Shown here: in pieces, positions 6,369 to 48,724 of the stretch | Numbering within the stretch: position 1 is the first letter of the stretch | Layout of the letters: every line of letters begins with the position of its first letter | Assembly: GCA_918797485.1 (NCBI GenBank) | Contig: CAKKNE010000006.1 | Location: forward strand, 248,001 to 312,000 | Direction of reading: 5' to 3' | Source: Pelagomonas calceolata | Taxonomy: Eukaryota; Sar; Pelagophyceae; Pelagomonadales; Pelagomonadaceae | DNA: 64,000 nt | Notes under the pieces: generated by a model | What the model was told of the DNA's origin: nothing | Databases searched by the model: none | The model's input: the letters and a program-made list of their open reading frames with translations, nothing else | Translations under genes and position numbers: made by a program

Positions 6369-6392
6369 GCTAGTGTCTTACAGGACGCTAGC
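6369..6392 (+). promoter_or_regulatory. GCTAG palindromic upstream element (copy 1)
   Basis: GCTAGTGTC, loop TTACAG, GACGCTAGC: a 9-bp dyad with one mismatch, 189 bp before the TRAPPC2 ATG and 70 bp after the previous stop. Confidence 0.65.
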
Positions 6393-6580
6393 TCGGCCGC
6401 TTTGGTGGAGTTGTCAAGGCCAGCCGCCAAGCGGGCCAGCTCTGCCCAATTTCACACGTGCGTGACGCCTGGCCAGCACTGGATCCCTCTCGTGGCGTTG
6501 CGCCAACGCCTGCCCGCGCGGCACCCTAACCTCGGCACCCAACAAGGCCAAAAAGCCAGCCGCAGCGCGCGACGCCAACC

Positions 6581-7003
6581 ATGGCCGCCAAGGACACAAC
6601 TTCAAAAATGTTCGTCGTCTGCGGTAGAGATGCGGACTTACTCTACGAGGCCGAGCTCAACGCCAATTTCGACGCGGAGTCCCCGACGGCGCATTTATCG
6701 CACTTCGTGCTGCACGCGGCGCTGGATAATGTCGATCATCTCATAGCGACGACGCCCGACGTGTATTTGAGGGTCGTGGACAATTTCAACGAGAAGCGCG
6801 TCTACGCGTTTTGTACCGGCGGACATGCGAAATTCCTACTGCTCCATGAAGGTAGAAACGAGGACGCCGTGCGCAATTTCTTCAATGATGTGTATGACAA
6901 GTACGTCCAGGCGCTGTTGAACCCGTTTTATGTGCCGGACTCGGAGCTCACATCGCCAGCCTTCGATCGAAGTGTGAGAGCTGCTGCCAAGAGGTATTTG
7001 TAA
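6581..7003 (+). CDS. TRAPPC2: TRAPP complex subunit 2 (sedlin family)
   Basis: The 140-residue length matches sedlin/Trs20. Family landmarks are FVVCGRDADLLYEAEL at the N-terminus, HFVLHAALDNVDH, YLRVVDNFNEKRVYAFCTGG, KFLLLHEGRNEDAVRNFFND and LNPFYVPDS near the end. TRAPPC2 is a small longin-fold subunit of the TRAPP tethering complexes that act in ER-Golgi and intra-Golgi transport. It is single exon, with the GCTAG palindrome 189 bp upstream. Its stop codon abuts the stop codon of the convergent MFS gene, so the two 3' UTRs must overlap. Confidence 0.95.
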   Translation: MAAKDTTSKMFVVCGRDADLLYEAELNANFDAESPTAHLSHFVLHAALDNVDHLIATTPDVYLRVVDNFNEKRVYAFCTGGHAKFLLLHEGRNEDAVRNFFNDVYDKYVQALLNPFYVPDSELTSPAFDRSVRAAAKRYL

Positions 7004-8398
7004 CTATGTGATCAGTAGGTCTCCCCCTAGTGGTGGTGTCCTTCTCCCCCGCGCAAGAGATGGTGGGGCGAGCAATGCTCGCACCTCGTGCTGCGCCCGG
7101 TCCTCATCCTCGATACCATGTGCTCTACCAACCAGCGAAAAGGCCACCGCCGAGGTCACCAGACAAATACAGACGCAGAGGAACAGCGGGTCCCTTACTT
7201 TTGCATCGCCGGGGTCGTGCGTCGACACGGCCCAGGGACCCAATGCGGCGACGGCCTGGTTGCAGACTAAGAGTAGCGCCACTTGTGTGCCCATGGATTT
7301 TGTAGGGACGTCTTCCACCAGTAACGACATGCCCGGTCCCAGCCAGCACTCCGACACGAGGATCAGGAGGAGTAAACACGTCAAAGATCCTCCAAAGGTA
7401 GAAGCGTACAGACACCCATAAGCCAGAGGGACCGCTAAGACGGCGCCGATCGCCGCGACGTCGCCGTGGGCCCCTTTGCGCCGCACGGCCCAGGCGTCGG
7501 CGATGTATCCCCCTCCTGAGGAGGAGGCGGCGCCGCACAGTAAGGTACCAAGGGCGTACGACAGCGAGAAGGCGACGGCGTCCTCCGGAAACGCTCTAGA
7601 ATAGTAGGTCGGCAGGTAGGTCCATAATGAGACGGTCGCGGCCATCCGCACGGACGTCGCGCCGTACAATCCTAACAGTCGCTTGACGCGCAGCACGTAG
7701 AGCACCGCTCGTCGCAGCGACACATATAAGCTGTCGGACGGGATGGTCCGCCTCGGCGGCCGGTCGACCACGAGCCACAGTAGCGCCGCGGCAAAAATAC
7801 CTACCACGCACGCCATCGTCGTCGTCTGGCGCCAGCCGACGCCCATGGCGAAGAGCAGCGAGAGTGTAGATAGAGCCGAGCCCGCATACGTCCCCATCGA
7901 ATAGCAGCCGTTCGCCGAGGCGCGCTCGTGCACCGCGTAGTGGTACGCCGTTACTGGATACGCGCACGGGGCGTTGAAGCCCTCCGCGACGCCCGTGATG
8001 AACCGCGCGAGCACAAGCATGGAAAACGAAGGATAGATGACGGGCAGGAAGCCTGCCAACGCCCAGGTCAAAGCGGCTCCGGCGTGCAACCGCTTGGCAT
8101 CGAGCCGATCCGCCAAATGGCCGGCAGCCAACCCAGACAGTGCGAAACACGTCGTGAAGGCGACGGACGCGAGCAGCCCGTACTGGCGGTCCGAGACACA
8201 CGCGGCATCTCTGATCGAGTAGTAGGCCGCGTCGGCGCCCGCGCGACACGTCTGGCACTCGCCGCACTCGTCGTTCTCGCACACATCACACACCGGCACG
8301 AAGGCCGCGTTCTCGCATTCTTTCAAACACTGAGGTGGGATGACGCTCGCGAGCGCGTAAATGAGGTTGCGCTGCCAGAAGTTCGAGGCGTTGGCCAC
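7004..8398 (-). CDS. Major facilitator superfamily transporter (spinster-like)
   Basis: About 464 residues with some 12 hydrophobic segments. The A-motif is present as GHLADRLDAKRLHAG (residues about 95-110), followed by MLVLARFITGVAEGFNAPCAYPV, the segment typical of spinster-like and organic-anion MFS carriers. A Cys-rich extracellular loop (CDVCENDECGECQTC) sits between the first two membrane segments. The given end at 8398 is a GTG. The frame continues upstream as LALAALTVANASNFW without an in-frame ATG before a stop near 8545, so the true start probably lies in an upstream exon. Substrate is unknown. Convergent with TRAPPC2, stop to stop. Confidence 0.8.
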   Translation of the reverse strand: MANASNFWQRNLIYALASVIPPQCLKECENAAFVPVCDVCENDECGECQTCRAGADAAYYSIRDAACVSDRQYGLLASVAFTTCFALSGLAAGHLADRLDAKRLHAGAALTWALAGFLPVIYPSFSMLVLARFITGVAEGFNAPCAYPVTAYHYAVHERASANGCYSMGTYAGSALSTLSLLFAMGVGWRQTTTMACVVGIFAAALLWLVVDRPPRRTIPSDSLYVSLRRAVLYVLRVKRLLGLYGATSVRMAATVSLWTYLPTYYSRAFPEDAVAFSLSYALGTLLCGAASSSGGGYIADAWAVRRKGAHGDVAAIGAVLAVPLAYGCLYASTFGGSLTCLLLLILVSECWLGPGMSLLVEDVPTKSMGTQVALLLVCNQAVAALGPWAVSTHDPGDAKVRDPLFLCVCICLVTSAVAFSLVGRAHGIEDEDRAQHEVRALLAPPSLARGRRTPPLGGDLLIT

Positions 8399-8890
8399 GG
8401 TCAGCGCCGCGAGGGCGAGCCGCCGCCGCGCCGGCGGCGGCCGCTGCTGGCGCCCGCTCTGGAACTCCGTCGTGTTTTGGTGTCCTTTCGGGTGCCGCTG
8501 CCCACGGCGCTCTTCCAGCTCCCAGCGCTGGATTTTCCCCTAGCACCGGCTGCCCCCGGCGTCGGAGTACCGGTGCGCGTGCGTGCGACGAGCTGTGCCG
8601 CCGCCGACACGCCGCAACGCCCCCAAAACGCACGATGTTTGAGGCTGGAAACCCGTATTTTCGCCTGAATTGCAGCTGAGGTTGAACGTCGCGAGAAGCG
8701 CTATTTTTTGCCTTCATGGGCAAGGGACGTGTCCGGAGTTGGCCCAGGACCGACGCGGGGTGAAGAAGTCGCGCTCGCGCTCGGACGCGGCGGCCGTGCG
8801 CAACACTGGAGCATGAATAAATCCCCGGCCGGCGCATCGACCATTCCCAATTACAAGAAACACATTATATATTACAAATTCGCCCGCCGC
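8399..8890. other. Intergenic / probable 5' region of the MFS gene
   Basis: About the first 145 bp (8399-8545) continue the MFS reading frame and probably belong to the coding region. A minus-strand ATG near 8716 (MKAKNSASRDVQP...) could be its first exon, but I could not place an intron with confidence. The rest is the 3' flank of the metallopeptidase gene. No GCTAG palindrome is visible. Confidence 0.35.
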
Positions 8891-11800
8891 TCACGAGACA
8901 AGCTCCGCCTCAAGCGCCCTCGACGCCATCGCCTTCTCCCGCACGAGCTCCGGCGCCGTCGCCGTTTTGAGCGCGTCGACCGCGACGCCCAGCGCCCCGC
9001 GCGCGGCACTCCGCACCGAAGAAAGCGAAAAGGGCGCCGGCCCGCGCCTTTCTTCAAACGCCGTCGCGTTCTGCGAATCGGCCAGCAAAAGCCTTAAACG
9101 TTCGAGCCAGGCGCTCGCCGTCGCCGTCTCGAGGACTTCTGAAGAAGGCAGCGGCTTTAGTAATTTCTCCGTCAGCGTCGACAAGACGGCCGAGTTATCC
9201 CCCTCGAGCCACGCGAGCGTGTCGTACCAGCGCAAACAAGTCACGTGTAAAACGTGGTCCATGGACCGCGTCCTTCTCTGTAGAGCGCCCTCGAGCCACA
9301 GGTCATAATCCGAGGCGAGCCCCCACTTGTATTCATTATCATCGAACGCGGCGGCGCGCTTCAGTAATGATAACGGGGGCAGGGCCAGGCCCGGGTCCCG
9401 CCAGGCGTCGCCTAGCAACTCCAAGGCTCTTTGACGCGTCTCCTTGGCTACGGGCTTCGAGAGCTCGTCATAATTTGTTCTGTCGTAGTCGAGACCCCGC
9501 ATATATAAGACGAGCAGCTCGCCGCAGTCGCGCCACCAGGCATTTAACGCTCGCGACGCGGCCGCGCGCTCGTACTCCCGCCGCCTCACGAAGACGTCCT
9601 CGTATCGCGAGGCCATCGCATCATCCCCCAGCCGCTCCAGAAATCTCTTCGTGACTCTCCTTTGTTGCGAACACCATTCGGTAGCATCCTGGCTGAGGTC
9701 GTAGGGCCTAGCGCGTGGATCGTTCGACGCTAGTTGGTCGCCGTCGTCCGATCTGGCGAGCGTCGGGTTGCCGTCCGCTTCTTGAGCGATGGCCCGGAGC
9801 TCGTCCTCCGAAACGACAGAGTAGCCATACTTGATGCAGAACGCGTCGTAGATGCCCACGCCGTCCATGAAATATTTACCTTGGTCTTTCTGGTCCTCCG
9901 CGACCACGGGCGCGATGTAGTCCATCACTGAAGATGCGACCCTACCTTGCTTGCGCTTCGTCGCGTCGTGGATGTCCTCGAGCTTATGGAGTGCCGAGGC
10001 CCGGAAGTTGTGCCTCAACCCAAGCGTGTGGCCCACCTCGTGCGCGACGACGTCGACCAACCCGGCCTCGACAAACGTCTTGGAGTCGACGTCGGCGTCG
10101 CCGCGCGCGGTGAGCCCAACAGCTAAGCCCTCTAACACTTCATGTGCCGACCGGTGGCAGTGGCGGTGCGCGTCGTGGCCGTGGCCGTGGTCGTGGTCGT
10201 GATCATGGCCCTGCCCGCCGTGGGCATGTCCCACGGGCGCGTGGTCGCCGCGGTCGTGGCGCCCGGACGGGTCGTGGCCGATCGAGGCCTCGTCCAACCA
10301 GCTCCCCGTGAACGCGCGGATCCAGCCCTCGCCGAACACGATGTTCGCGTAGAGGATCTCGCCCGTCCGGGCATCCACGACGGACGGGCCGATCGCCAAT
10401 CCTAGGTCGGGGTAGGGCAGCCAAGTGATCGAGGAAAACCGCACGTCCCCGGGATCATACTCCGCCGGCCAATCAGCATCATCCGGTTCCACGACTTTGA
10501 TGGCTTCCTCGAAGCCAATCGCTTCAAAAGCTGGCTGCCAAGTCAAGACGCCGCGCTTGATGGCTTCCCTCAAAGGTTGTGGTACGGTCGGGTCGAGGTG
10601 GTACGTGATTGGTACCCTGGGTTTGCAGAGTAGTCTCCGACCGTGAGCCAATCGACGTTCGGTGCAGTCCTCATCTTTTTCTAGACGCCTCCTGTGTGGA
10701 AACCAGTGCGTCGGGTGCACCGACAATTCTTCACTAAGTCATTTCTTCGCGATGACGCGGCCGTCCTGGCTCGGTCGAGCGGCGAGGAACCGGCATCGCC
10801 ACGCCATCGAGCAGGCGTCGCGTCGATGGCGTGGAGGACGACGCGACGATTCAGCACGAACGCGCCGTAAAATCTTGATTTCCACACAGGCCGTCGCCGG
10901 TTTATCAAGTTCACTCTCCGGTCCGCATCACTATAGGAAGCATTCGGCGCGTCCGTGTGGAAATCTCTCGGGAGGGGTCCGAGCTGCTCGTACGTCGTCC
11001 CGAAGAAGCCCACCCTATCATCAGCGCGCCTCGGCGTCATCGGCTCGTCGGGCAACAACGCTAAAGAGTAGGCTATTTCTACAGCCGTCGGGTCGTTGGC
11101 GTACACATCTTCCACATCCCACAATGAACACGCGACGACGAACTGCACATTTCGGGGAAACGCCGAGACAGATCGCAATTCGAGCTCGCCGTGGCAGCGC
11201 TTCGGAATATCTACAATCGCGGCGCCTTCGTTCAGGATCCAGCTCCAGGCGTTGTATACGACTGCGCCGTCGCCGCAGTCGCCCGCCTTCGGCAGCGTCG
11301 CGACCCAGCCCACGGCACCCAGACCGTCCTCGGCGGCCGCCGCGTACGTGTCCGTCACCGGCCTTACACTTAGGGGTGGCCGCGTGACGCGCGCGTCGCC
11401 GCCGTGTGCTGATTCTCTCAATGTGAAATAGCTGTCCTCGACGCCGACGCCGTAGTGGGCAAAGCCCGCGTCGCGGCCGGTTGTCCTTCGTGTGGTAGCT
11501 ATCACCGTGAACGGCGCGGAGAGCGTTTCGTTGGGGATCGTCAGGAGCAGCGACTGGCTCGCGTAGTCGGCGTGCGCGTGCCACGTCGCGTTCGTCGCGT
11601 TTCTAGCCGCGCAGGCTTGCTTGGCCGGGTCCGGCGGTGGTGGCGGAGGGGTCAGTAAGGTAGCCAGCGTGAGCTGCAGCATTTCTAGAGTGGTCGCGAG
11701 CGACGGCTGCCGCGGCGTCGCGGCGACGGCGTAGGCGATGAGTGCGACGACGACCGCGGCGCCCGACGCGCCGCAGCACGCGCGGAGCCAGCGGCGTTTC

Positions 11801-11907
11801 CTTTGCGGTGGTGGCATGGGTCTGCTGCCGTTGCGCGACGGGCTCGACGGGCCCATCAGTTCGATGCCGTCCTCCTCCGAGTGGTGTACTGGGTTGTACT
11901 GCACCAT
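8891..11907 (-). CDS. Membrane-anchored zinc-dependent metallopeptidase (DUF5117/DUF4953-like)
   Basis: Two exons, 10898-11907 and 8891-10691, joined across a 206-bp introner give a 936-residue protein and restore the family block DDRVGFFGTTYE...NLINR|RRLEKDED. That block matches the 'DPRVGFF...INRWRLEK' region of this metallopeptidase family. Residues about 40-65 are a transmembrane anchor after a short basic tail. The zinc site HEVGHTLGLRHNF follows in exon 2, at about residue 555. A His/Asp-rich insertion (GHDHDHDHGHGHDAHRHCH) just before it is unusual and could bind extra metal. The family is mostly bacterial, so transfer from bacteria is possible but not shown here. Substrate is unknown; the topology suggests a lumenal or extracellular catalytic domain. 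Confidence 0.85.
10692..10889 (-). mobile_element. Introner element forming the intron of the metallopeptidase gene
   Basis: Termini are CTGTGTGGAAA at one end and its inverse TTTCCACACAG at the other. The central inverted repeat is CACGCCATCGA...TCGATGGCGTG. Flanking 8-mers (10684-10691 and 10890-10897) are diverged copies matching at 5 of 8 positions in the coding sense. Reading frame and family alignment fit an intron 10692-10897 that starts with GC in the upstream flank and ends with the element's terminal AG. A GT two codons further in would also keep frame. Confidence 0.85.
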
Positions 11908-12136: not shown

Positions 12137-12160
12137 GCTAGTGTCTTACAGTCCGCTAGC
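12137..12160 (+). promoter_or_regulatory. GCTAG palindromic upstream element (copy 2)
   Basis: GCTAGTGTCTTACA followed by GCTAGC, 230 bp upstream of the metallopeptidase ATG, in the 383-bp gap 11908-12290. The rest of that gap shows no gene. Confidence 0.6.
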
Positions 12161-12290: not shown

Positions 12291-13126
12291 TTACATCATC
12301 GACGGCATGTGGAAGTTGCCCTCGAAGGGGATCATGTAGTTGCCGTCGTACGGCGGGATGAAGGTCAGGACCGGGACCGAGCCCGGGACCTTCGAGGCGC
12401 TCATGAAGCCGAAGATGCCGAGCATCGCCGCGCGGCCGTTGTTGATCTCGATGAGCCGCCCCCGCGCGCGCTTCTCCTCCGTGTCCATGCGCTTCCGGAG
12501 CGATCCAAAGGGGTCGAAGAGGTCGAACGGCACCGGGTGCGGGTAGCCCTCGCCCTCGGCGTACGCGTCGGAGAACGACGGGAACATGCCGGGCTTGCGG
12601 CCCATCATGTAGTGCGGCGCGACGGACTCGTCGAAGAGCTCGAGCATGCCGACCTGTGCGTAGAACGTCGCGTCGACGCCATCGCCGCGACCACAAAAAT
12701 TCGAGTTTCGACGCTGAACCAAACGAAGAGGATAATTTGCCACTTGCTCGCGGCCGGGAGCGCGTCCCACTGCTCCGGCGGGGAGCCGGACGGCCAGTCG
12801 GCGCCGCCGAGCGTCATCTTCGTCGCCCAGTGGCCGCCGTTCGCCTGGACGCAGTAGCCGACGAAGGCCGCCATGGCCACGCGGCCGTGCTTGATCTCGG
12901 CCTGCCGGTACCACGCGATCGTCTGCTCGTTGTTGAAGCCGTAGAGCGAGCCCGACGCGCCGGCGACGTTCAGGGGATCCCAGAAGCCAATCGTGGGGTT
13001 GAGGCCCTTCGCCAAAGCCTCGAGGTCCGACTTCGACTCCTGCAGCCGCGTCTCGGCGGGCGCGGCCGCCGGGCCGACGAACGCGGCCGCGGCGGGGAGG
13101 ACCGCCAATGCGACGGCGAGCTTCAT
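12291..13126 (-). CDS. Fucoxanthin-chlorophyll a/c-type light-harvesting protein
   Basis: Exon 1 (12725-13126) and exon 2 (12291-12653) join as WQIILF|VGMLELFDES, giving 254 residues. The N-terminus MKLAVALAVLPAAAAFVGP is a signal peptide followed by an A|FVGP site, the bipartite leader used for red-derived complex plastids. The two conserved chlorophyll-binding helices read EIKHGRVAMAAFVG and EINNGRAAMLGIFGFM, with the Glu-Arg pair in each. The protein acts in thylakoid antennae. The 71-bp intron 12654-12724 is GT-AG and carries the GTCGCGGCGATGGCGTC core seen in the other introns. No membrane segment appears missing. Confidence 0.95.
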
Positions 13127-18852: not shown

Positions 18853-18874
18853 GCTAGCGGTGAAAGACACTAGC
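18853..18874 (-). promoter_or_regulatory. GCTAG palindromic upstream element (copy 3, inverted)
   Basis: GCTAGCGGTG...GACACTAGC, the minus-sense form with a 22-bp span, 205 bp before the ATG at 19079. Confidence 0.6.
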
Positions 18875-19933: not shown

Positions 19934-20030
19934 AACTTACTTGTACCCTGCGCGATGGCGTGGCGATGGTTCCACGCCATCGACGCGGCGTACATATGGG
20001 GCTAGGCGTCAATCAAACTTACTTGTACCC
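19933..20030. repeat. 16-bp direct repeats flanking a short insert with the introner core
   Basis: AAACTTACTTGTACCC occurs at 19933-19948 and 20015-20030. The second copy contains the COQ5 stop codon. The 66 bp between them hold GCGATGGCGTGG and CCACGCCATCGACGCG, the inverted core of the introns. A 16-bp duplication is longer than the 8 bp seen at the intact introners. Confidence 0.7.
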
Positions 20031-21033: not shown

Positions 21034-21055
21034 GCTAGCGGTGTAACACACTAGC
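21034..21055 (-). promoter_or_regulatory. GCTAG palindromic upstream element (copy 4, inverted)
   Basis: GCTAGCGGTGTAACACACTAGC, 161 bp upstream of the COQ5 ATG in the 333-bp gap 20874-21206. The same gap holds CACGCCATCGACGCGACGC near 21157, another intron-type core outside a gene. Confidence 0.65.
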
Positions 21056-28981: not shown

Positions 28982-29789
28982 CTTATTGGCTGTTGTTTTT
29001 TTGTGTTTAAGAGGGCGCGCGGCGCTCGCTGGCGCTTTGGGCTGAGGCGGCGACGGCCCTGTTACGGGCCCTGGCGCACCGAGCGATGCGAGGCGCTAGT
29101 GTTTTGAGACAAGCGACACTCCAGGCAGTATATTAGTAACGTAGCACGGTCAGCGCGACCACAGGGACTACACGCTGCAAAAAAAAAACCTGTTTTGCTT
29201 CAATTTGTTTCGGGGGGTCCGGGGAAAGTCGTTCTTATTTTTCCATTTCTCTGATACTGCGTCAATGGAACGTCAATGGATTGCTACATCAAAATAGCAG
29301 CTTCTTTTAATGGGACGGGTTTCACCTCAGCTGTTCCTCTTCTTCGGGCCGTATTGTCCTACGGCGCCCACCGTGCACCGCCTCGAGCCTCTTCGCGCGT
29401 CGTGTGTCATAGCGGGAGGCGAAACGCACGAACGGACACCGCGTTTTGGCGGCTATCTGATGAGCACACGGGCTAATTCTTCACTTTACCTAGTCTTGCG
29501 TTATAGCGACCCCGCGCCGTGTTGCCGGGGATCCCTAGCTCGACGTCGTCAAAATGGTTTGGCGTGCTTTGCTAGTGTGTTACAGGCCTCTTAGCTAATC
29601 GCGGCCTTGGATGCGAGGCGTTTCCTCCGCGCCCAGGCACATTTTGGACGCGCCAGAGCATTTCGGGGCCACGTTGCATTGGCAAGAAAGCATAGAAGCA
29701 GCCACGGCCACTGCCGCCCGCGGTTCCCGCTCCTTGGCCAGACCGAAGACAGAACACCAAAACGCCATCGCCGCGGCGCACCCGCACCC
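28982..29789. other. Long intergenic region between divergent genes
   Basis: 808 bp, locally AT-richer (A-run near 29179, ATTTTTCCATTTC near 29235), with a tandem GTCAATGGA pair near 29260. CGCTAGTGTTTTGAGACA near 29095 is a half palindrome 114 bp before the PRP19 ATG. A full but degenerate element is at 29571. No gene is recognised. Confidence 0.45.
29571..29595 (+). promoter_or_regulatory. GCTAG palindromic upstream element (copy 5, decayed)
   Basis: GCTAGTGTGTTACAGGCC, then CTTAGC, followed by TAATCG as at copy 45602. It lies 195 bp before the ATG at 29790. Confidence 0.55.
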
Positions 29790-30720: not shown

Positions 30721-30744
30721 GCTAGTGTCTTACCGGTCGCTAGC
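30721..30744 (+). promoter_or_regulatory. GCTAG palindromic upstream element (copy 6)
   Basis: GCTAGTGTCTTACC followed by GCTAGC, 142 bp before the ATG at 30886 and 28 bp after the previous stop. Confidence 0.6.
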
Positions 30745-33986: not shown

Positions 33987-34010
33987 GCTAGTGTCTCACA
34001 TGACGCTAGC
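33987..34010 (+). promoter_or_regulatory. GCTAG palindromic upstream element (copy 7)
   Basis: GCTAGTGTC, loop TCACAT, GACGCTAGC, a 9-bp dyad 142 bp before the PKR1 ATG and 180 bp from the divergent ATG at 33807. It is the main feature of the 344-bp gap. Confidence 0.65.
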
Positions 34011-34151
34011 AAGCGGCCGGGTCGCGAGCTTGTAAAAAACACTCTGTGAGGCGCACTTTTGCAGCTCAAATCACGTTTTGCACTCGTGCCAGCGCCAGCG
34101 CGTCGCTGACTGCTCCGCTCAGCCACACGCCGTCGACGTGCATGCGCACCC

Positions 34152-38975: not shown

Positions 38976-38999
38976 GCTAGCGGTCGGTAAGTCACTAGG
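38976..38999 (-). promoter_or_regulatory. GCTAG palindromic element in a bidirectional promoter (copy 8)
   Basis: GCTAGCGGTCGGTAAG, then CACTAGG. It is 187 bp from the plus ATG at 39186 and 170 bp from the minus ATG at 38806, the only such element in this 379-bp divergent gap, so it may serve both genes. Confidence 0.6.
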
Positions 39000-39185: not shown

Positions 39186-40319
39186 ATGTCGCTGGTGAGG
39201 ACGTCCGGCCACCAGCTGGCGCACGGCGCTTACACAGAAAAACAGCAAGCCACAAGCAACGTGCTCAAACATTCGAACATCGACGCCGTAGAGATCGCGC
39301 CGCTCATGAACGACTGGCTCCAGCACGCGTTGGCGGGCGCGTACGGCGCTTCGGCACGCCACCGCTTCATGATCGGGGCGATGGCCGGCTCACGCGCCGC
39401 GGCTTTCGCGTCCGGAATGGCGATAGTCCACGCGCGCCGCGGCTTCCTGACGGACGCGTATGTGTGCGACGAAGCGCGGGCCGCGGTGGACGCCTACGAA
39501 CGAGTGCTGGCCGTCGCGCCGCCGCTGGAGGCCTTGATTGTGTGGTCCTTCGCGGACCTGCCGCCCGCCCTGGCCGCGCGGCGCACCTACTTCCTCTCGG
39601 GCTTGGAGTGGCTGGCGCGCTGCGGCTTCGCGCTCCTCAACCGCCTCATTCGGCAGCGGCGCCTCATTATGGACCGGGCGACGTTCATGCGGCTCATCGC
39701 CTTCCTCAATGCGGACATCTGCCAGTCGCGGCGCAACATCATCCCCGGGTGGTGCCCCGAAGACGACACGCGCGTGCGGCTCGTCGTCGTCAGCTGCGTG
39801 AACGTCGTCGACTTCGCGCGCGGCCACCCGAAGCACCAGCTCGAGCTCGCGCCGCTCCTCACCGCCTGCTTCGTCGAGACGTCGAAGAAGGAGATGGTCT
39901 CGACGGCGTCGGACCGCTTCTACAAGTACCCGATCCACCAGCACTTCCTCTACTGCCTCTTGACGCACATCGGCTGCTGCGTGCCGGACGCCGAGCTCCC
40001 CCAGGTGCGCCTCCAGTTCGGGGAGGCGTGCCGGTCGATTCGCCCGATGCATCATAACTGGGGCTTCGAGACCGCCGAGGCGGGCGGCTCCGCCGGCTCG
40101 TGGTACGGCATCCACAGCAGCGTGGTCGCGCCCCCGGACGACATCGCCCGCGCGCTCCGGACGCACGGTCCGAACCACCTCCTCGACCTCACCGACAAGG
40201 CCACCGTCAAGCTCGTCCTCGCCGCCCACCAGCGCGGGACGCCGTGCGGCGCGACGCAGATCGCGCGGCTCCTGCGGAGCCGCGACGACTACGAGACGCC
40301 CGCCGTCCCTCGGGTGTAG
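39186..40319 (+). CDS. Conserved-looking protein of unknown function
   Basis: 377 residues, ATG 39186, single exon, strongly GC3-rich. It is mostly helical with several Cys and Trp positions (DICQSRRNIIPGWCPEDDTR, LEALIVWSFADLPPALAARR). LYCLLTHIGCCVPDAELPQV is hydrophobic but probably buried rather than membrane spanning. No catalytic motif is recognised. Its strong coding bias relative to flanks supports a real gene. Confidence 0.6.
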   Translation: MSLVRTSGHQLAHGAYTEKQQATSNVLKHSNIDAVEIAPLMNDWLQHALAGAYGASARHRFMIGAMAGSRAAAFASGMAIVHARRGFLTDAYVCDEARAAVDAYERVLAVAPPLEALIVWSFADLPPALAARRTYFLSGLEWLARCGFALLNRLIRQRRLIMDRATFMRLIAFLNADICQSRRNIIPGWCPEDDTRVRLVVVSCVNVVDFARGHPKHQLELAPLLTACFVETSKKEMVSTASDRFYKYPIHQHFLYCLLTHIGCCVPDAELPQVRLQFGEACRSIRPMHHNWGFETAEAGGSAGSWYGIHSSVVAPPDDIARALRTHGPNHLLDLTDKATVKLVLAAHQRGTPCGATQIARLLRSRDDYETPAVPRV

Positions 40320-40365: not shown

Positions 40366-40389
40366 GCTAGTGTCTTACATGCCGCTAGC
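40366..40389 (+). promoter_or_regulatory. Orphan GCTAG palindrome at the left edge of a tandem duplication (copy 9)
   Basis: GCTAGTGTCTTACA followed by GCTAGC, identical with its next 170 bp to 43776-43955 apart from one base. No start codon lies at the usual distance. It marks the junction where the duplicated ubiquitin-like/RING units begin. Confidence 0.7.
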
Positions 40390-40546
40390 GCGTAATTAGT
40401 TCGCAAGGAAATCCCGGCTTTACTCGCAGCGCAAAGTCGTCATGAATCGCAGATTCTATAAGCATTGCTCTAAGTAACCGTACGAGCAGCCCAAAGGAAT
40501 TCTCGCACTTCTGCATGGTGCCCGTGGTGTTATTAGTAACTTATTA

Positions 40547-41919
40547 CTACCCAGTGTGCGGCGTGGATACCCACCGGCGAATCCGCGATTCGGCGACGCG
40601 TGCCTCGGAATCCTCGTCGTCGTATAGGATGTCGTACAAGCGGTCGCCGCGAATAGCTGTGATCTTGCCGGTGAACCACTGGTTGCCGCCGCGCGACCGC
40701 ACCTCGACGCGCTGGTTAACCGCGAATGCGGCATTGTAGGATGGGCGCTCTCTCGCCGCCGCTTCCCTCGCGCGGGCGGCCTCGCGGCGCGCCGCCTCGT
40801 CGCGCTCCCTCGCGCGGCGCGCCGCCTCGTCGCGCTCCCTCGCGCGGGCGGCCTCGCGGCGCGCCGCCTCGTCGCGCGCGGCGCGGAGCTCGGCGCGGGC
40901 CCGCTCCGCCTCGCGCCGCGACCGCTCGACGGCGGCGCGCCGCTCGCGCTCCTCGGCGGCTTCGCGGCGCGACCGCTCGACGGCCTCGCGCCGCGCCGCC
41001 GCGTCCTCGTCTTCTCGCGCCGCTTCCCGCCGCTGCCGCGTCGCGTCGCGGTCCTGCGCCTCCTCCGTAGGGCGAGGAGTAGCGCCGACACTTTGTCCAT
41101 TGACGAGCAGGGCGCCGCCCGGGATGCTCCCGAAGCACACCTCGCAGAGGGCGTGGCCGCAGGGCAGGGCCACGACGGGTTCCGCCGTCTCTAAGCAGAC
41201 GGGACAGTGGGCCGAGGCGAAGACTCTGTTCCCACAGGCGCGCCGTGGGGGCTGCGTGCGGCAGATGGGGCAGGCGAGGACCCGATCGCGAGTCTGAAAC
41301 CGCACCTCATGTGAACCCACAATTCGCCCAGACCTGCCCACAAAACTCCGGTCGCCCACGGGGTTGATGTTGAAGACGTAGTCTTCTCCCGGCGGCTTTG
41401 GGGTCTGATGTTCAATGTGTTCGCTGTGTGTGTGACGGCCGTGGGCAGCAACCGCTCATCATTGCCGCGATAGTCCGCGATAGTGCACGGTATGCAATTC
41501 GCAATTGGAGGGACCAGGGCTCCCACGTTGATATACGAGTTGCCTTTTGCAGGGTCTGAGGACTCGGCGTTCGTGCAAAATAGAATGGAGACTAAAGTTC
41601 CATCTCCTGCTTCATTCTCGGACGGGACATCCCTCAGATCTGCTCCATTTACGGTGATTCTCTTTATCCACTGATGGTAACGGGCCCTGGGAGGTCCACC
41701 TCCTAACCGGAGGACCAGGTGGAGCGTCGATTCCATGTGGATGTTGTAGTCACTCAGCGTGCGGCCGTACTCGAGCTGTCTGCCGGCGTAGATGAGGCGA
41801 AGCTGGTCCGGAGGAACGCCCCTGTACCGGATCTTCTGCTTGACGCTGTCGATCGCGTCGCTCGGCTCGACGTCGAGCGTGAACGTCTCGCCCGTCATGG
41901 TCTTGACGAAGATCTGCAT
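40547..41919 (-). pseudogene. Ubiquitin-like/RING/Tudor-like gene, copy 1, frame-disrupted
   Basis: Starts at ATG 41919 with a ubiquitin-like domain ([20 protein letters not shown]) and runs in frame to NTLNI. Near 41390-41410 it is 4 bp shorter than copy 2 (GGCGGCTTTGGGGTC versus GGCCGGAGCTTTGGGAAAC), which shifts the frame. The RING-like, coiled-coil and Tudor-like parts continue intact in another frame to the stop at 40547. Everything else is almost identical to copy 2, so the break is recent or could be a sequencing error. If real, it would produce a truncated protein of about 242 residues. Confidence 0.7.
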
Positions 41920-42115
41920 ATCGGTGCAGCGCTGCGTCGCAGGGCGTATTTTGGCACCAGTTTTACCACCATCAAGCCAGCATTGGTGATGAGGCCAGCC
42001 TGTGCTGGTAGCAGCAGCAAACGGCTGCCTCGCGAGTAGGTGAATGCAAACGGGCTGCCCCCAAAGCGGCGGCGGTGAGCAGCAGCACGTCGCGATCCAG
42101 CAGCTCTCCGGATTT

Positions 42116-42139
42116 GCTAGTGTCTTACATGCCGCTAGC
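42116..42139 (+). promoter_or_regulatory. GCTAG palindromic upstream element (copy 10)
   Basis: GCTAGTGTCTTACA followed by GCTAGC, 197 bp upstream of the copy 1 ATG at 41919. Confidence 0.65.
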
Positions 42140-42198
42140 GCGTGTTGCGCAAGGAGCAGCCCAAAGGAATTGTCGCACTTCTGCAGGTGTTTAGTAAC

Positions 42199-43581
42199 TT
42201 ATTTATGCCCAGTGTGCGGCGTGGATACCCACCGGCGAATCCGCGATTCGGCGACGCGTGCCTCGGAATCCTCGTCGTCGTATAGGATGTCGTACAAGCG
42301 GTCGCCGCGAATAGCTGTGATCTTGCCGGTGAACCACTGGTTGCCGCTGCGCCACCGCACCTCGACGCGCTGGTTAACCGCGAATGCGGCATTGTAGGAT
42401 GGGCGCTCTCTCGCTGCCGCTTCCCTCGCGCGGGCGGCCTCGCGGCGCGCCGCCTCGTCGCGCTCCCTCGCGCGGCGCGCCGCCTCGTCGCGCTCCCTCG
42501 CGCGGGCGGCCTCGCGGCGCGCCGCCTCGTCGCGCGCGGCGCGGAGCTCGGCGCGGGCCCGCTCCGCCTCGCGCTGCGACCGCTCGACGGCGGCGCGCCG
42601 CTCGCGCTCCTCGGCCGCCTCCCGCCGCGACCGCTCGACGGCCTCGCGCCGCGCCGCCGCGTCCTCGTCTTCTCGCGCCGCTTCCCGCCGCTGCCGCGTC
42701 GCGTCGCGGTCCTGCGCCTCCTCCGTAGGGCGAGGAGCAGCGCCGACACTTTGTCCATTGACGAGCAGGGCGCCGCCCGGGATGCTCCCGAAGCATCCCT
42801 CGCAGAGGGCGTGGCCGCAGGGCAGGGCCACGACGGGTTCCGCCGTCTCTAAGCAGACGGGACAGTGGGCCGAGGCGAAGACTCTGTTCCCACAGGCGCG
42901 CCGTGGGGGCTGCGTGCGGCAGATGGGGCAGGCGAGGACCCGATCGCGAGTCTGAAACCGCACCTCATGTGAACCCACAATTCGCCCAGACCTGCCCACA
43001 AAACTCCGGTCGCCCACGGGGTTGATGTTGAAGACGTAGTCTTCTCCCGGCCGGAGCTTTGGGAAACTGATGTTCAATGTGTTCGCTGTGTGTGTGACGG
43101 CCGTGGGCAGCAACCGCTCATCATTGCCGCGATAGTCCGCGATAGTGCACGGTATGCAATTCGCAATTGGAGGGACCAGGGCTCCCACGTTGATATACGA
43201 GTTGCCTTTTGCAGGGTCTGAGGACTCGGCGTTCGTGCAAAATAGAATGGAGACTAAAGTTCCATCTCCTGCTTCATTCTCGGACGGGACATCCCTCAGA
43301 TCTGCTCCATTTACGGTGATTCTCTTTATCCACTGATGGTAACGGGCCCTGGGAGGTCCACCTCCTAACCGGAGGACCAGGTAGAGCGTCGATTCCATGT
43401 GGATGTTGTAGTCACTCAGCGTGCGGCCGTCCTCGAGCTGTCTGCCGGCGTAGATGAGGCGAAGCTGGTCCGGAGGAACGCCCCTGTACCGGATCTTCTG
43501 CTTGACGCTGTCGATCGCGTCGCTCGGCTCGACGTCGAGCGTGAACGTCTCGCCAATCAGGGTCTTGACGAAGATCTGCAT
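42199..43581 (-). CDS. Ubiquitin-like / RING-like / coiled-coil / Tudor-like protein, copy 2
   Basis: 460 residues. Residues 1-74 are ubiquitin-like, ending VLRLGGG. Residues about 80-200 form a globular region ([37 protein letters not shown]). Residues about 225-275 are Cys-rich: [10 protein letters not shown] comes first, then [25 protein letters not shown]. In ordinary C3HC4 RINGs the CPxCR pair comes last, so the order looks permuted. A long Arg/Glu/Ala coiled coil (about 295-400) follows. The C-terminal [19 protein letters not shown]...[14 protein letters not shown] is Tudor-like. An E3 ubiquitin ligase or ubiquitin-mimic role is plausible but unproven. This is the intact representative of units 1 and 2. 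Confidence 0.8.
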
Positions 43582-43775
43582 ATCGGGAAGCCAAGGAAAG
43601 CGGAACTAGTCCCGTGCCGCGCTGCGTCGCAGGTCCGCTTTGATGATGAGGCCAGCCTGTACTGGTGCAGCGGCAGCAGCGAACGGCTGCCTCGCGAATA
43701 GGTGAATGCAGGCGGGGCTGCCCCCAAAGCGGCGGTGAGCAGCAGCACGTCGCGATCCAGCAGCTCTCCGGATTT

Positions 43776-43799
43776 GCTAGTGTCTTACATGCCGCTAGC
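43776..43799 (+). promoter_or_regulatory. GCTAG palindromic upstream element (copy 11)
   Basis: GCTAGTGTCTTACA followed by GCTAGC, 195 bp upstream of the copy 2 ATG at 43581. Confidence 0.65.
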
Positions 43800-43955
43800 G
43801 CGTAATTAGTTCGCAAGGAATCCCGGCTTTACTCGCAGCGCAAAGTCGTCATGAATCGCAGATTCTATAAGCATTGCTCTAAGTAACCGTACGAGCAGCC
43901 CAAAGGAATTCTCGCACTTCTGCATGGTGCCCGTGGTGTTATTAGTAACTTATTA

Positions 43956-45413
43956 CTACCCAGTGTGCGGCGTGGATACCCACCGGCGAATCCGCGATTC
44001 GGCGACGCGTGCCTCGGAATCCTCGTCGTCGTATAGGATGTCGTACAAGCGGTCGCCGCGAATAGCTGTGATCTTGCCGGTGAACCACTGGTTGCCGCCG
44101 CGCGACCGCACCTCGACGCGCTGGTTAACCGCGAATGCGGCATTGTAGGATGGGCGCTCTCTCGCTGCCGCTTCCCTCGCGCGGGCGGCCTCGCGGCGCG
44201 CCGCCTCGTCGCGCTCCCTCGCGCGGCGCGCCGCCTCGTCGCGCTCCCTCGCGCGGCGCGCCGCCTCGTCGCGCTCCCTCGCGCGGGCGGCCTCGCGGCG
44301 CGCCGCCTCGTCGCGCTCCCTCGCGCGGGCAGCCTCGCGGCGCGCCGCCTCGTCGCGCGCGGCGCGGAGCTCGGCGCGGGCCCGCTCCGCCTCGCGCCGC
44401 GACCGCTCGACGGCCTCGCGCCGCGCCGCCGCGTCCTCGTCTTCTCGCGCCGCTTCCCGCCGCTGCCGCGTCGCGTCGCGGTCCTGCGCCTCCTCCGTAG
44501 GGCGAGGAGTAGCGCCGACACTTTGTCCATTGACGAGCAGGGCGCCGCCCGGGATGCTCCCGAAGCAGGCCTCGCAGAGGGCGTGGCCGCAGGGCAGGGC
44601 CACGACGGGTTCCGCCGTCTCGAGGCAGACCGGACATTTCGCCGATGCGAAGACTCTGTTCCCACAGGCGCGGCGTGGAGGCTGCGTGCGGCAGATCGGA
44701 CAAGCGAGGACCCGATCGCGAGTCTGAAACCGCACCGCATGTCGATCCCGGAAGCATTCACCAGACCTGCCCACACAACTCCCTCTGCCCAAGGTAGCGA
44801 TCCTGAAGATGTAGTACTCTCCCGGCCGAAGCTTCGGGAATCTGATATTCAATGTGTTCGCTGTGTGTGTGAATGCCGTGGGCAGCAACGCCAGGACACG
44901 AGAGCCGTTAGCCAGGACACATTCCCTTCGTCTGTCATCGCCCCCACGACATGTGATAGCGAACGCCTCTACATTCGACGATTCATTCCTAATTGGAGGG
45001 ATCAGGGCGGCCACGTTTATATACGAGTTGCCTTTTGCAGGGTCTGAGGACTCGGCGTTCGTGCAAAATAGAATGGAAACTAAAGTTCCATCTCCTGCTT
45101 CATTCTCGAACGGGACATCTGACGTCCTCAGATCTGCTCCATTTACGGCGATGCTCCGTATCCACTGATGGTAATACGGGCCAGGAGGTGCTCCTCCTAG
45201 CCGGAGCACCAGGTGGAGCGTCGATTCCATGTGGATGTCGTAGTCACTCAGAGTGCGGCCGTCCTCGAGCTGCCTGCCGTAGATGAGGCGCTGCTCGTCA
45301 GGAGGAATGCCCTCCTTGTCCTGGATCTTCAGCCTCACGCTGTCGATCGTCTCGGACGGCTCGACGTCGAGCGTGATCGTCTTGCCCGTCGGGGTCTTGA
45401 CGAAAATCTGCAT
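43956..45413 (-). CDS. Ubiquitin-like / RING-like / coiled-coil / Tudor-like protein, copy 3
   Basis: 485 residues, same order of domains as copy 2. Its ubiquitin-like domain is closest to real ubiquitin ([20 protein letters not shown], then [20 protein letters not shown]), but one residue is missing before GRQL and it ends LRLGG rather than LRLRGG. The middle region has an insertion relative to copy 2 ([20 protein letters not shown]). The coiled coil has additional ERDEAARR units. From the coil to the stop the DNA is almost identical to copy 1, while the N-terminal half is clearly diverged, suggesting gene conversion of the 3' half. Confidence 0.8.
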
Positions 45414-45601
45414 ATCGGGATGCCAAGGAAAGCGGAGCTAGTCCCGTGCAGCGCCAGGTCCGATTTGATGATGAGGCCAGCCTGTGCTGGTGTAGCAGCA
45501 GCAGCGAACGGCTGCCTCGCGAATAGGTGAATGCAGGCGGGGGCTGCCCCCAAAGGCGGTGAGCAGCAGCACTGTCGCAATCCCGATCGGCGGATTAGCT
45601 T

Positions 45602-45625
45602 GCTAGTGTGTTACAGGCCGCTAGC
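45602..45625 (+). promoter_or_regulatory. GCTAG palindromic element in a bidirectional promoter (copy 12)
   Basis: GCTAGTGTGTTACA followed by GCTAGC, 189 bp from the copy 3 ATG (minus) and 154 bp from the plus-strand ATG at 45779, in a 365-bp divergent gap. Confidence 0.65.
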
Positions 45626-45778: not shown

Positions 45779-47639
45779 ATGCTGCGGCTGCGGACGCTGC
45801 TGCTCATCGCGGCGGCCGCCACGGCGACGACGACGACAACAACAACGACGGCCGGCCCCCACGACGGACGGACGGACGGCCCGACCCCCAGCAAGGCCCT
45901 CACGGCCCCCGCGACGTCGGCCGCCGTCTCCGCGGGCCCGCCCCGGACGGACGTCGCGCCGCCCGGACGAACGCGGGTGCGCATGGTCGTGTCCGGCCGC
46001 GACCGGCACACGCAGTTCTGCATTGGGGAGTTGGTGTTTCTGGACTCCTCAGGTAGAGAAGTAGCAGCTTCAAAAGCCACGGCGAGCGCGCCGCGCGCCC
46101 AGAAGGGCTTCGAGCCCAAACTACTCAGCGACGGCCGCCTGCACCACGACTTTTGCAGCGCCGAGCCGACGGGCTGGGTGTCGTTGGATCTTGAGGTGCC
46201 CCTACGCGAGTTAGCCGCGTATAGAATAGGATCGGACTGTGGGGAAGACACGCCGACGGACTGGACCCTGGAAGCCTGCGACAGCTGCGTCCACTCGGAT
46301 GAGGAAACGTGGGAAACGTTGGACGTGCGCACAGCAGAACCGTGGCGAAGTGGGTGTGACGGCGAGTGGCGCGACTATTCGATACAGAGGTGGAGAGTAT
46401 TGAGAATATCATCAGGAGTGCAGGACTGGTGCTTGGATGCTTTGAGATTGAATGGGGAAGAAAACAAACCGCTACGAATTAATAGCGCGAGGCCGGTCGC
46501 CGCGCCGGGCGCCACCGAAGCGTCAGGCGCGCGCGACTTCGCCCAGCGCGCCTCCACGATATCAAGGCTGGTGGGCATCGGCGGCCCGCCCTCGGACAAC
46601 GGGCAGCCGTGGTGCGGGACCGTGACGATCTGTGTGGAAATCAGATTTTGGGCGCCCGCCATCGACGCGATGCTGTACCTATAAATGCGTCTGCTCGATG
46701 GCGTAGAGTTCACGCCATCGACGCGACGTTGTCCCCTTGGCCGCGTCGGCTCGATGGCGTGGAGGTGCACGAAGGTCTCCGCAATATTTCTCAGGATAAC
46801 CTAACTCACTGGTTGATTCGACACAGGTCACGATGGGCGCCTTCGAGCCAAGTATGGCGACGTTCTGCGCGGACCTCGTGCATGAGAAGAGGAGCTGTGG
46901 TAGCTCAAGAGTCCTTGGTAAACGGGACACGGCCTCGGCCTGCGCGCGCTCTGTGCACCTTGATGATGAATGTAGCGGTCAGCGCTTCGAGTTCGATTCT
47001 GATAGTTCACACTGCGCGTGCTGTGCGTCCTCGGCGACGAAGCCCGGCGTCGGTTCTGTGTATGAGTACAACTACTGCGCTTCCCTCGTTGTTGATCTGC
47101 AACCTCAAGGTAGGGTACCTGTGGTAGCCGTACGCATAAGACGACCACAGAACGAGGCGCCAGCACCGATGAAATTGCGCGTGGACGGGTGCCTCTGGGA
47201 CCGGTCTCCACACGATGGGAAGCGGCTCCCCTTCGGCGGCTGCCGCCTCTGGAAGCGCCTCGCGACGGATACGAGAATCCAGTTTAACGGAGACGGCTGG
47301 GCCTTACTGTCGCTGCCCGGCGGCGTCGCCATAACGAAGTCCGCGCCGCCCTCTCATTTTTTCGACGAACTGGCGACGTCGCCCGGAGTGGGCACCGCGC
47401 GCGGCCCCGGCCAGGCGGCGCCGCGCGCGGTCGCCGTGGACCTGGGCGACCACGTCTGGGCGCCGGAACCCGACGGCGTGAAACTGCGGCGCATCAAGCT
47501 GACGCAATCTCATTTGCACGACATGTCGCGGATGAGTTCCGGTAGGGTCGTCTCGGCGACGTTCGCGCGCAATGTCAGTGGAGACACCTTGCTCGGGCGC
47601 AGCCGGGGCGACTCGAGCGTGATCAATATACGGATGTAA
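45779..47639 (+). CDS. Secreted or membrane-lumen protein with discoidin-like repeats
   Basis: Exon 1 45779-46621 and exon 2 46827-47639 join as PWCGT|VTMGAFEPS for 551 residues. MLRLRTLLLIAAAATA is a signal peptide, followed by a Thr-rich run encoded by ACG/ACA repeats. The first half (IGELVFLDSSGREV...GWVSLDLEVPL...TDWTLEACDSC...WETLDVRT) has the pattern of an F5/8-type-C/discoidin-like domain common in protist surface proteins. The second half is another beta-rich, Cys-containing region (SSHCACCASSATKPG, CLWDRSPHDGKRLPFGGCRLWKRL). It may bind carbohydrate or lipid on the cell surface. Its intron is an introner. Confidence 0.7.
46630..46826 (+). mobile_element. Introner with internally duplicated core
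   Basis: Termini are CTGTGTGGAAATCA and CTGGTTGATTCGACACAG, the latter slightly decayed. The 8-bp target duplication is GTGACGAT at 46622-46629 and GTCACGAT at 46827-46834. The intron is 46622-46826 (205 bp), GT-AG, phase 0. The GCCATCGACGCG / CTCGATGGCG inverted pair is present twice in tandem, unlike the other copies. Confidence 0.9.
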
Positions 47640-47670
47640 TGTTTTATGTACACAAAAACTATATACAAAA

Positions 47671-48069
47671 TCAGTAGAGGAGCGTCCCGCTCGAGCTGAG
47701 GTCCTGTAATGAAGAAGACCGGCAGCGGAGCAGGTAGCGCCAGGGGCTCTTGTCCTCGGGCCACGGCGGCAGCGAGAAGGCCTGTGTGTAGATGCCTTGC
47801 GTCGACGCCGTAGCGCGGACGAGGGGACGCGGGGGCGCGCCAATTGCGAATTCGCCGCCGCGAGCGTCGCGATGCGCGAAGCGGCAGACGACGGCGAAGC
47901 TGAGACTCGGCGCCAGGCCAAACAGCAACAACCAGACGCACGACGCGGACAAACAACCGAGCATGACGGGCCGCCGGCCGATCCTGTCGGATATCGCGCC
48001 CCAGAACGGGAAGCACAACTGCCCGAGCTGGTATGACGCCGCGGTCGCCGCACCACCACCACCTACCAC
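47671..48069 (-). pseudogene. MFS transporter fragment (minus strand)
   Basis: SYQLGQLCFPFWGAISDRIGRRPVMLGCL is a clear MFS loop 2-3 signature, followed by one further membrane helix (WLLLFGLAPSLSFAVVCRF). After that the frame loses MFS character and stops at 47671. The first helix and the remaining ten or so helices are absent. It starts near 48065 where another MFS fragment begins on the opposite strand. Probably a gene remnant; a spliced small gene is less likely. Confidence 0.6.
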
Positions 48070-48560
48070 GCCTCATGTGCATCGCGTTTTTTCTGGGCCT
48101 CCTCGCCTCGCAGGTGGGCCTCATCGTCCACGCGTGCTTGGCTAACGTGACCTATCCGCGCGCTCGCGCGTCGGCGATGGCAATTCATAGCATCTTCGAC
48201 GACCTCGGCAAGGGCGGCGGTCCCTGGCTCGTGGCCAAATTCATCAAGCACTACGGGCGCCGACGGACATTCGTCTGGACGACTATCATTGCCTGGGGCG
48301 GTGCGGCGTTCTTTCAATACCTGTGCTCGTTTACACTAGAAGCTGACGAGCGCAAGATCCGCGAGCGCGGCGGCGGTGGGGCGGACGTGCCCGTCGCGAG
48401 GCATTCGTGGCTCGCCAAGCAGTCGTCCGCCGACCTCGAGAGCGAGTTCCGCGACGCTGCGGACGAGACAACGTCGCTGCTGCACCGGAGGGATCGCGAC
48501 GCCGCCGCACCATCTCGCTTCGACACGGGGCAGTTCAGCTTTCGTGATGCCGCGCAATAA
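48069..48560 (+). pseudogene. MFS transporter C-terminal fragment (plus strand)
   Basis: From LMCIAFFLGLLASQVGLIVHACLANVTYP through ARASAMAIHSIFDDLGKGGGPWLV to TFVWTTIIAWGGAAFFQYLC this is the last third of a spinster-like MFS carrier, with an acidic and Ser-rich cytosolic tail to TAA 48558. The preceding 350 or so residues expected for such a carrier are not upstream on this strand; the fragment of another MFS gene lies there instead, inverted. The frame itself can be extended to an ATG at 48033, without homology. Confidence 0.6.
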
Positions 48561-48693
48561 GTTCGATAGACTACTCTCTGAGTTCACGCGCGTTCCGCGT
48601 CCCCCTAGCCCAGCTCGGGCGGCGCTCGGGTCCGTAGCTCGTCGTAGCCGTCTGGATCCATGATTTACGCGTCTGCGGCGTCCGATACGCGTG

Positions 48694-48724
48694 GAGCTAG
48701 GTAGTGTATCAGACACACTAGCTC
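48694..48724. promoter_or_regulatory. Long variant of the GCTAG palindrome (copy 13)
   Basis: GAGCTAG...TAGTGTATC...ACACACTAGCTC, a 31-bp dyad followed by a T-run, 191 bp before the giant-gene ATG in the gap 48561-48914. The nested TAGTGT/ACACTA arms match the other copies. Confidence 0.6.

Follow-up and report, generated by a model that had tools for sequence, protein, structure and literature searches.

A short sequence recurs at thirteen intergenic sites in the 64-kb stretch of Pelagomonas calceolata DNA analysed here (hereafter the window), and the question that this locus raises is what one sequence does in front of so many different genes. We know of no account of promoter architecture in pelagophytes, and our literature searches found no description of the element. 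An earlier note on this DNA had listed the thirteen sites and read them as a palindromic, general promoter-type element. All thirteen are present: ten match GCTAGTGT...GCTAGC exactly on one strand (6369, 12137, 18853, 21034, 30721, 33987, 40366, 42116, 43776 and 45602) and three are degenerate (29571, 38976 and 48694/48700, with 3, 2 and 4 mismatches, respectively). A bipartite scan accepting up to 4 mismatches returns exactly these sites from the window and one site from the reversed window; two looser dyads that had been placed at 13727 and 22936 are absent among the matches at this threshold and were not counted. The sites are as follows.

6369..6392, plus strand: exact element, spacer 4, upstream of a Sedlin_N/TRAPPC2-like gene, 6581-7003 (+)
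12137..12160, plus strand: exact element, upstream of a DUF5117 gene, 10681-11907 (-)
18853..18874, minus strand: element with exact arms, spacer 2 and 1 inner mismatch, upstream of 19079-19933 (+)
21034..21055, minus strand: exact element, spacer 2, upstream of a COQ5 gene, 20019-20873 (-)
29571..29595, plus strand: element with a degenerate right half, 3 mismatches, about 200 bp before 29790-30692 (+)
30721..30744, plus strand: exact element, upstream of an ORF, 30886-32166 (+)
33987..34010, plus strand: exact element, between 32188-33807 (-) and an ORF, 34142-34963 (+)
38976..38999, minus strand: element with 2 mismatches, at the centre of the divergent pair 36737-38806 (-) and 39186-40319 (+)
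40366..40389, plus strand: exact element copy with no start codon near, between convergent ends
42116..42139, plus strand: exact element, upstream of a ubiquitin-like ORF, 41191-41919 (-)
43776..43799, plus strand: exact element, upstream of a ubiquitin-like/RING gene, 42199-43581 (-)
45602..45625, plus strand: exact element, near the centre of the divergent pair 43956-45413 (-) and 45779-46684 (+)
48700..48722, plus strand: degenerate, nearly symmetric element, 4 mismatches, 193 bp before a 4805-aa ORF, 48915-63332 (+)

The site at 29571 also lies about 590 bp before a Prp19-like gene on its opposite side (27602-28981, -), the site at 38976 is 181 and 198 bp from its two divergent starts, and the site at 48700..48722, which is part of the 48694 site, also scored on the minus strand as 48696-48722. 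The 4805-aa ORF that follows the last of these has no Pfam match at 1e-3. That twelve of the thirteen sites lie 142-230 bp from an ATG is confirmed with both ORFs and gene models, 30721 being included on the basis of the ORF start at 30886 (the codon model favours a later ATG at 31063). The sole exception is 40366, which belongs to a duplicated ubiquitin-like/RING array and has a flank in common with 43776.

The consensus of the element, TT-GCTAGTGTSTTACA-NN-CCGCTAGC-T, is typically 24 bp long, with a spacer of 0-8 nt (mode 4) between ...TTAC and CGCTAGC. The description as a palindrome is right for the GCTAG/CTAGC arms, which are inverted, and fails for the inner parts, which do not match; the element is a directional two-part site in which the order of the halves is fixed. 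Genome-wide, the pattern CTAGTGTSTYAC-N(0-12)-CGCTAG has 2495 matches (reversed control, 0) and the exact form GCTAGTGTN(0-14)GCTAGC has 2198 (reversed control, 7), and a right half stands within 12 nt of 87% of the left 12-mers (2495/2857). Symmetric variants are nearly missing, with 16 left-left and 1 right-right arrangements against 2495 left-right, and on these counts the symmetric dimer site that had been suggested is not supported. Strict copies occur once per ~13 kb and relaxed copies about once per 4.6 kb; the viral contigs contain no exact match to CTAGTGTSTTACN(0-8)CGCTAG. The information content of the element is ~36 bits, a value inflated by the selection of matches, and lies far above the ~14 bits that would suffice to specify the observed copy number, an unusual excess if one ordinary factor were to read the site. 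Variation is uneven, most changes falling in the spacer or at a handful of two-fold positions, and the positions flanking the element carry at most ~0.3 bit each.

We examined placement relative to genes in 264 kb including the window, where the relaxed scan, again accepting up to 4 mismatches, found 57 sites (reversed control, 4). The gene models were built from ORFs and codon usage with introns left out, so that the distances from element to start carry error. Predicted CDS makes up 69% of the 264 kb and, on these intron-less models, holds none of the 57 elements, in agreement with the claim that none falls in a coding exon. Elements are found in 27 of the 46 divergent and 24 of the 58 tandem intergenic regions sampled, against 2 of the 44 convergent ones (Fisher tests versus convergent, 1.4e-8 and 1.8e-5, respectively). 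Elements stand a median of 197 bp from the nearest start codon (IQR 167-241), and 37/53 elements lie within 140-300 bp of a start, against 16.5 +/- 3.2 under random placement; in regions of at least 700 bp, 16/18 elements are no more than 300 bp from a start, where 7.0 would be expected (P = 0.0002). In compact divergent promoters the element lies near the centre. Orientation in tandem regions is 15:9 (P = 0.31) and thus free, as had been noted from the window. The element lies within 500 bp upstream of 72 of the 152 predicted genes and is missing from the other 80, and is therefore not universal. A k-mer search for further promoter words gave weak signals only.

The genes that carry the element are of unrelated function, judging by Pfam matches in the sampled genes, and include those for Sedlin_N (trafficking), COQ5 (ubiquinone synthesis), ubiquitin-like/RING proteins and dihydrouridine synthase, while many have no Pfam match at all. 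The diversity that had been claimed is borne out, and the gene names TRAPPC2, COQ5 and metallopeptidase are matched by Sedlin_N, COQ5 and met-zincin hits. At 1e-8, a Pfam match was obtained for 6/20 element genes, one of which falls under the curated cut-off, versus 8/20 element-free genes; this sample of 20 + 20 reveals no clear difference in Pfam content and gives no sign of functional coherence.

Retention was assessed in a diverged relative, MED672, on three contigs (L034, L042 and L029) that were assigned to pelagophytes by DNA match and contain eight elements; among the 16 loci found, L031 and a further MED672 locus, L054, were left out of the alignment. Across the three segments compared, all seven elements of P. 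calceolata are kept in the relative, and 7/8 of the relative's elements have a P. calceolata counterpart, one of them in flipped orientation; L034:461 has no partner. With classes assigned by hand, the element is present in both species in 7 orthologous regions, in the relative only in 1, in P. calceolata only in 0 and in neither in 4 (Fisher, 0.01). One orthologous pair aligns at 16/24 only. Random intergenic windows are partly conserved too (22-mers matching at 19/22 or more, 0-0.57 per region), and an ungapped conservation test was mixed, with the element clearly above background in only 1/7 regions (L029) and, in one other region with an indel between the two orthologues, below the background median.

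A general promoter-type DNA element, as the earlier note proposed, is well supported because of its position, its exclusion from CDS and near-exclusion from convergent regions, its free orientation, the unrelated genes that carry it and its retention in the relative. Uniform spread, coding copies and target duplications, the contrary outcomes looked for in the 264 kb, were not seen. Like sites of the general regulatory factor (GRF) type, the element is enriched upstream of the starts of unrelated genes, restricted in position, free in orientation, scarce or missing in coding and convergent regions and, in the small sample compared and with a mixed window test, retained in a related species. 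We consider it probable that the element is recognized as double-stranded DNA by a binding factor, in the proximal promoters of about half of the genes sampled, and most likely the 24 bases are the target of a putative transcriptional activator.

General regulatory factors such as yeast Abf1 and Reb1 or mammalian ZNF143 open nucleosome-depleted promoter centres and allow polymerase II to start. By analogy, the best reading is a lineage-specific general promoter element with a putative binder, which would work as the sites of these factors do. The yeast sites (Abf1, Reb1, Rap1) lie in proximal promoters of unrelated, often divergent genes without fixed orientation, and those of Abf1 are two-part. 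The pelagophyte element resembles them as a single proximal-promoter site with the same placement, but greatly exceeds them in length (24 bp, ~36 bits) and has a spacer that varies by several nucleotides. The mammalian ZNF143/THAP11 SBS is a long multi-module motif of some two thousand promoters, frequently bidirectional ones; in all these respects it is similar, although its sequence is unrelated and the pelagophyte element has two GCTAG-type arms. Oomycete core promoter elements of the Inr/FPR class are likewise stramenopile promoter motifs common to unrelated genes, but they act at the TSS, whereas the pelagophyte element lies ~200 bp from the ATG and is orientation-free. Oomycete core promoter elements are a subject of PMC3599244, and the main text of PMC3520976, on oomycete promoters, contains no CTAG string.

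Mechanistically, the element would be bound either by one multi-finger or multi-domain protein with a long footprint or by two proteins in cooperation, which would open a nucleosome-depleted promoter centre, from which polymerase II could then start on one or both sides. More tentatively, we hypothesize that a single long, directional element, both halves of which are obligatory, marks about half of the promoters in pelagophytes, that a lineage-private factor pair (or multi-finger protein) may read it and so position the middle of promoters that are depleted of nucleosomes and often bidirectional, and that this system, with its unusually over-specified site, could be the lineage's own substitute for the general regulatory factors that other eukaryotes use.

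That only 72/152 genes have an element within 500 bp upstream would also suit a specific regulator of a cell-cycle, light or nutrient regulon, which we regard as unlikely since the carriers range from trafficking to dihydrouridine synthase and, in the sample of 20 + 20 genes, their Pfam content is similar to that of element-free genes. A small mobile or gene-converting palindrome, landing in open promoter chromatin and spreading neutrally, appears less likely still. The unusually high information content, the common flanks of copies in the duplicated array, the flipped orthologous pair and the introner-type peak of intron lengths that is reported for P. calceolata are in its favour. However, no border direct repeat is clearly above shuffled pairs, the nearly uninformative flanks delimit no larger unit, sequence changes are unevenly distributed, as described above, and among the seven orthologous copies none is confined to P. 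calceolata. The element itself lacks repeat coverage in 53/57 cases, the other four all lying in one tandem gene array (40366-45602); repeat depth reaches 1 somewhere within 200 bp of six more. Introners, whose length class is reported for introns of this species, and terminal inverted repeats are alike in being short repeated DNA, here in a pelagophyte, but the element, with neither a larger unit nor clear target duplications and lying outside predicted CDS, fails as a MITE-like unit.

Replication origins or chromosome-architecture sites, found in promoters because these are open, would likewise be intergenic, promoter-centred and free in orientation; the density of the element, high for origins, and its tight spacing to start codons make them very improbable. 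Least credible is an RNA-level signal such as a 5'-leader hairpin, to which the short inverted arms and the location upstream of start codons would be suited. The element takes either orientation with respect to the gene, the inner parts pair only with a bulge, and the outer arms do not covary: position 0 is paired in 37/57 sites against 38.7 expected under independence, with 10 C-C cells among the 57. Nor was there any Rfam match at the gathering threshold in the window, L034, L042 or L029, and the hairpin is rejected for want of covarying arms and a fixed strand. Free orientation, non-covarying arms and the lack of evident target duplications thus speak against both the hairpin and the mobile palindrome, which had been offered as alternatives.

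Sharply defined and present at about half of the genes sampled, the element offers a handle on transcription start in pelagophyte genomes, and could serve as bait for the isolation of its factor and as a part for expression constructs. Its size of ~36 bits is puzzling, and points to a pair of readers, very strong selection or a history of copying. Pelagophytes include, according to a passage of PMC9481584, one of the most abundant eukaryotes of the ocean.

Loci L030, L035 and L036 were excluded as evidence. L030 has a spirochaete-type MgtE gene ~2 kb from a perfect 24-mer, perhaps through chance or a chimera. L036 has packed, bacterial-looking ORFs, and its element adjoins a HAD-ankyrin gene; the best match of that gene among named relatives (66%) bears the label unclassified Pelagophyceae, so that this locus looks chimeric.

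All 13 sites that had been listed for the element in the window were confirmed by direct check. Scanning with GCTAGTGTSTYAC, a spacer of 0-8 nt and CGCTAGC, and allowing at most 4 mismatches in total, we recovered exactly these 13 sites in the window and 44 more in 200 kb of contig 1 (C1:1000001-1200000; GC content is 63% in both samples), against 1 and 3 matches, respectively, in the reversed sequences and 3 in 200 kb simulated with a third-order Markov model of that sample. At 5 mismatches the signal (16 in the window, 71 in the 200 kb) is comparable to the reversed control (20 and 41), and the cut-off was therefore set at 4. Genome-wide counts refer to the assembly of 32,445,274 bases in 8 contigs, described for P. 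calceolata RCC100 as six nuclear, one plastid and one mitochondrial (PMC9481584). The pattern GCTAGTGTN(0-14)GCTAGC occurs 2198 times versus 7 in the reversed control, and CTAGTGTSTYACN(0-12)CGCTAG 2495 times versus 0. The left 12-mer by itself is found 2857 times versus 4 in the control, so that 87% of left halves are accompanied by a right half. We estimate about 7000 relaxed copies genome-wide, a figure extrapolated from 57 per 264 kb and not counted directly.

Across the 57 relaxed sites, GCTAGTGT is preceded by TT (38/57 and 41/57) and followed by S (C 40, G 15), T (57/57), Y (T 47, C 10) and then A, C, A; the 3' part consists of variable letters, CCGCTAGC and a T (34/57). The spacer downstream of TTAC measures 4 nt in 36 sites, 3 in 9, 2 in 5 and other lengths in 7. 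No position outside the element carries more than about 0.3 bit. The total information is 36.5 bits, a value inflated by match selection, or 40.6 bits for the 36 sites with a 4-nt spacer; about 14 bits are needed. The earlier note called the element palindromic: its arms do look inverted, but the site is directional, with only 16 left-left and 1 right-right symmetric forms in the genome. Six of the 16, read by hand from the match list, have GTGTGTCG centrally on one strand, and GTGTCG also occurs in 2 of 8 pattern matches within the relative's MAG (see below); these forms are a minor variant class. It is this long, obligately paired, asymmetric site that is unusual and that makes the element worth pursuing.

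Genes were modelled without introns, from ORFs and codon-usage scores trained on long ORFs; P. calceolata has 0.45 introns per gene (PMC9481584). As the earlier note had claimed for coding exons, none of the 57 elements lies in the coding sequence predicted by these intronless models, which makes up 69% of the 264 kb. Elements occupy 27/46 divergent, 24/58 tandem and 2/44 convergent intergenic regions. The convergent matches amount to four elements in two regions, namely a weak pair (3 and 4 mismatches) and those at 40366 and 42116, where the gene model missed ORFs 40456-41100 and 41191-41919. The distance-to-start analysis that had been proposed, run in the 264 kb on predicted starts, revealed clustering: the nearest start codon is 140-300 bp away for 37 of the 53 elements in start-bearing regions, versus 16.5 +/- 3.2 under random placement (maximum 30 in 5000 trials). 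Seven divergent regions with an element measure 341-409 bp; in six of them it sits at 0.48-0.55 of the length, for example 167/174, 177/167 and 173/178 bp from the two starts, and in the other at 0.29. The bare word CTAG peaks 150-200 bp before starts (67, versus 9-18 per 50-bp bin at 400-600 bp). In the same two samples GGGCAGCC is mildly enriched 0-150 bp upstream of starts, on the gene strand.

Window genes with an upstream element include Sedlin_N, COQ5, DUF5117 and ubiquitin-like/RING genes, and one element is located some 590 bp from a Prp19-like gene. Among contig 1 genes of suitable length, 20 of 49 with the element and 20 of 50 without it were drawn at random, and a Pfam match at 1e-8 was obtained for 6/20 and 8/20, respectively; neither this comparison nor the window neighbours revealed a functional theme. 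Three further features of the window are:
40366-45625, a tandem array of three ubiquitin-like ORFs (two with RING domains) with duplicated promoters, in which the element copy at 40366 persists without a gene start
12399-13009, minus strand, a light-harvesting gene (Chloroa_b-bind) split into two pieces (C6:260399-260533 and C6:260695-261009)
48915-63332, a single open frame of 4805 aa with no Pfam match at 1e-3

The inverted look of the arms invites the reading that the element acts as RNA. We observed, however, that in tandem regions the plus strand of the element is the gene strand in 15 cases and the opposite strand in 9 (P = 0.31), bearing out the earlier statement that either orientation occurs, and that pairing of the outer arm positions does not exceed the independence expectation over the 57 sites; because of this free orientation and the lack of excess arm pairing, an RNA-level role is unlikely. 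As to a mobile palindrome, direct repeats at the borders of the 57 sites are near the shuffled-pair level, the largest excesses being 2-mers (6 versus 3.5 at offset 1, 7 versus 3.6 at offset 3), alongside 3-mers at offset 2 (three versus 1.0) and isolated 4- or 6-mers. In a self-comparison of the 264 kb, repeats cover the element proper at 4/57 sites, all within the ubiquitin-like/RING array (40366-45602). A promoter element acting at the DNA level is by far the most likely reading of the sequence evidence. By analogy with known systems, a general factor might open promoter centres at the element.

A pattern scan of the sequence collection returned 16 loci with the element. Of the loci from the MAG 'Spirochaeta sp. 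MED672' (L029, L031, L034, L042 and L054), three were compared with P. calceolata and match its contig 6 in blocks of about 80-94% identity:
L034, to C6:2236569-2246679
L042, to C6:2669048-2678806
L029, to C6:477195-485026
They apparently come from a second, diverged pelagophyte whose undeclared DNA contaminates this bacterial MAG. The three segments contain 8 elements of the relative (at most 4 mismatches) outside predicted coding sequence, a count that excludes a ninth match inside a predicted gene (L042:7954, 4 mismatches). Seven of the 8 have a P. calceolata partner in the corresponding intergenic region, six of these lying inside shared alignment blocks or in the gaps between them and one (in L029) adjoining the last block, and all 7 P. 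calceolata elements in these segments are partnered. One orthologous pair is flipped (L034:5352, minus, versus 7293, plus, in the reversed L057, the P. calceolata counterpart of L034). Four promoter-type regions, assigned by hand, lack the element in both species at 4 mismatches; in one of them the two species share the position of a 5-mismatch match, a level no better than noise. Identity is 145/166 aligned columns over the seven element pairs and 300/720 positions in the flanks of the six co-oriented pairs, a comparison biased toward the element, both copies having been picked by motif. A 22-mer window conservation test of orthologous regions had a mixed outcome. From this small sample we read retention of the element with turnover.

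The words motif, palindrom- and promoter are absent from the main text of the P. calceolata genome paper (PMC9481584), and motif and promoter words from that of a 2026 paper on acclimation in this species (PMC13284251). Judged by title and abstract start, the matches listed for Pelagomonas promoters and motifs describe no such element, nor does any title among the matches listed for stramenopile core promoters, Aureococcus, pelagophytes and introners, or the element's own 8-mer, a search whose scope excluded supplements and most subscription papers. These negatives fall short of showing that the element is absent from print.

Exact elements also occur in three contigs filed as bacterial:
L030:2146-2169, in a contig that carries a spirochaete-type gene
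L036:5580-5601, in a contig where a pelagophyte-like HAD-ankyrin gene stands next to packed bacterial-looking ORFs
L035:3761-3784
The contigs of L030 and L036 are possibly chimeric.

A second CTAG-bearing motif, GTTACGGTGCTAGGACTAGTGGGCGG, follows stop codons in tandem regions (L009:4903, L016:7498, L017:2885, L021:6267 and L023:2276, and L034:299-455 and 2050-2172), in several cases directly upstream of the promoter element. It forms the beginning of a repeat of about 160 bp, and its 14-mer core has 231 copies in the genome versus 0 in the control.
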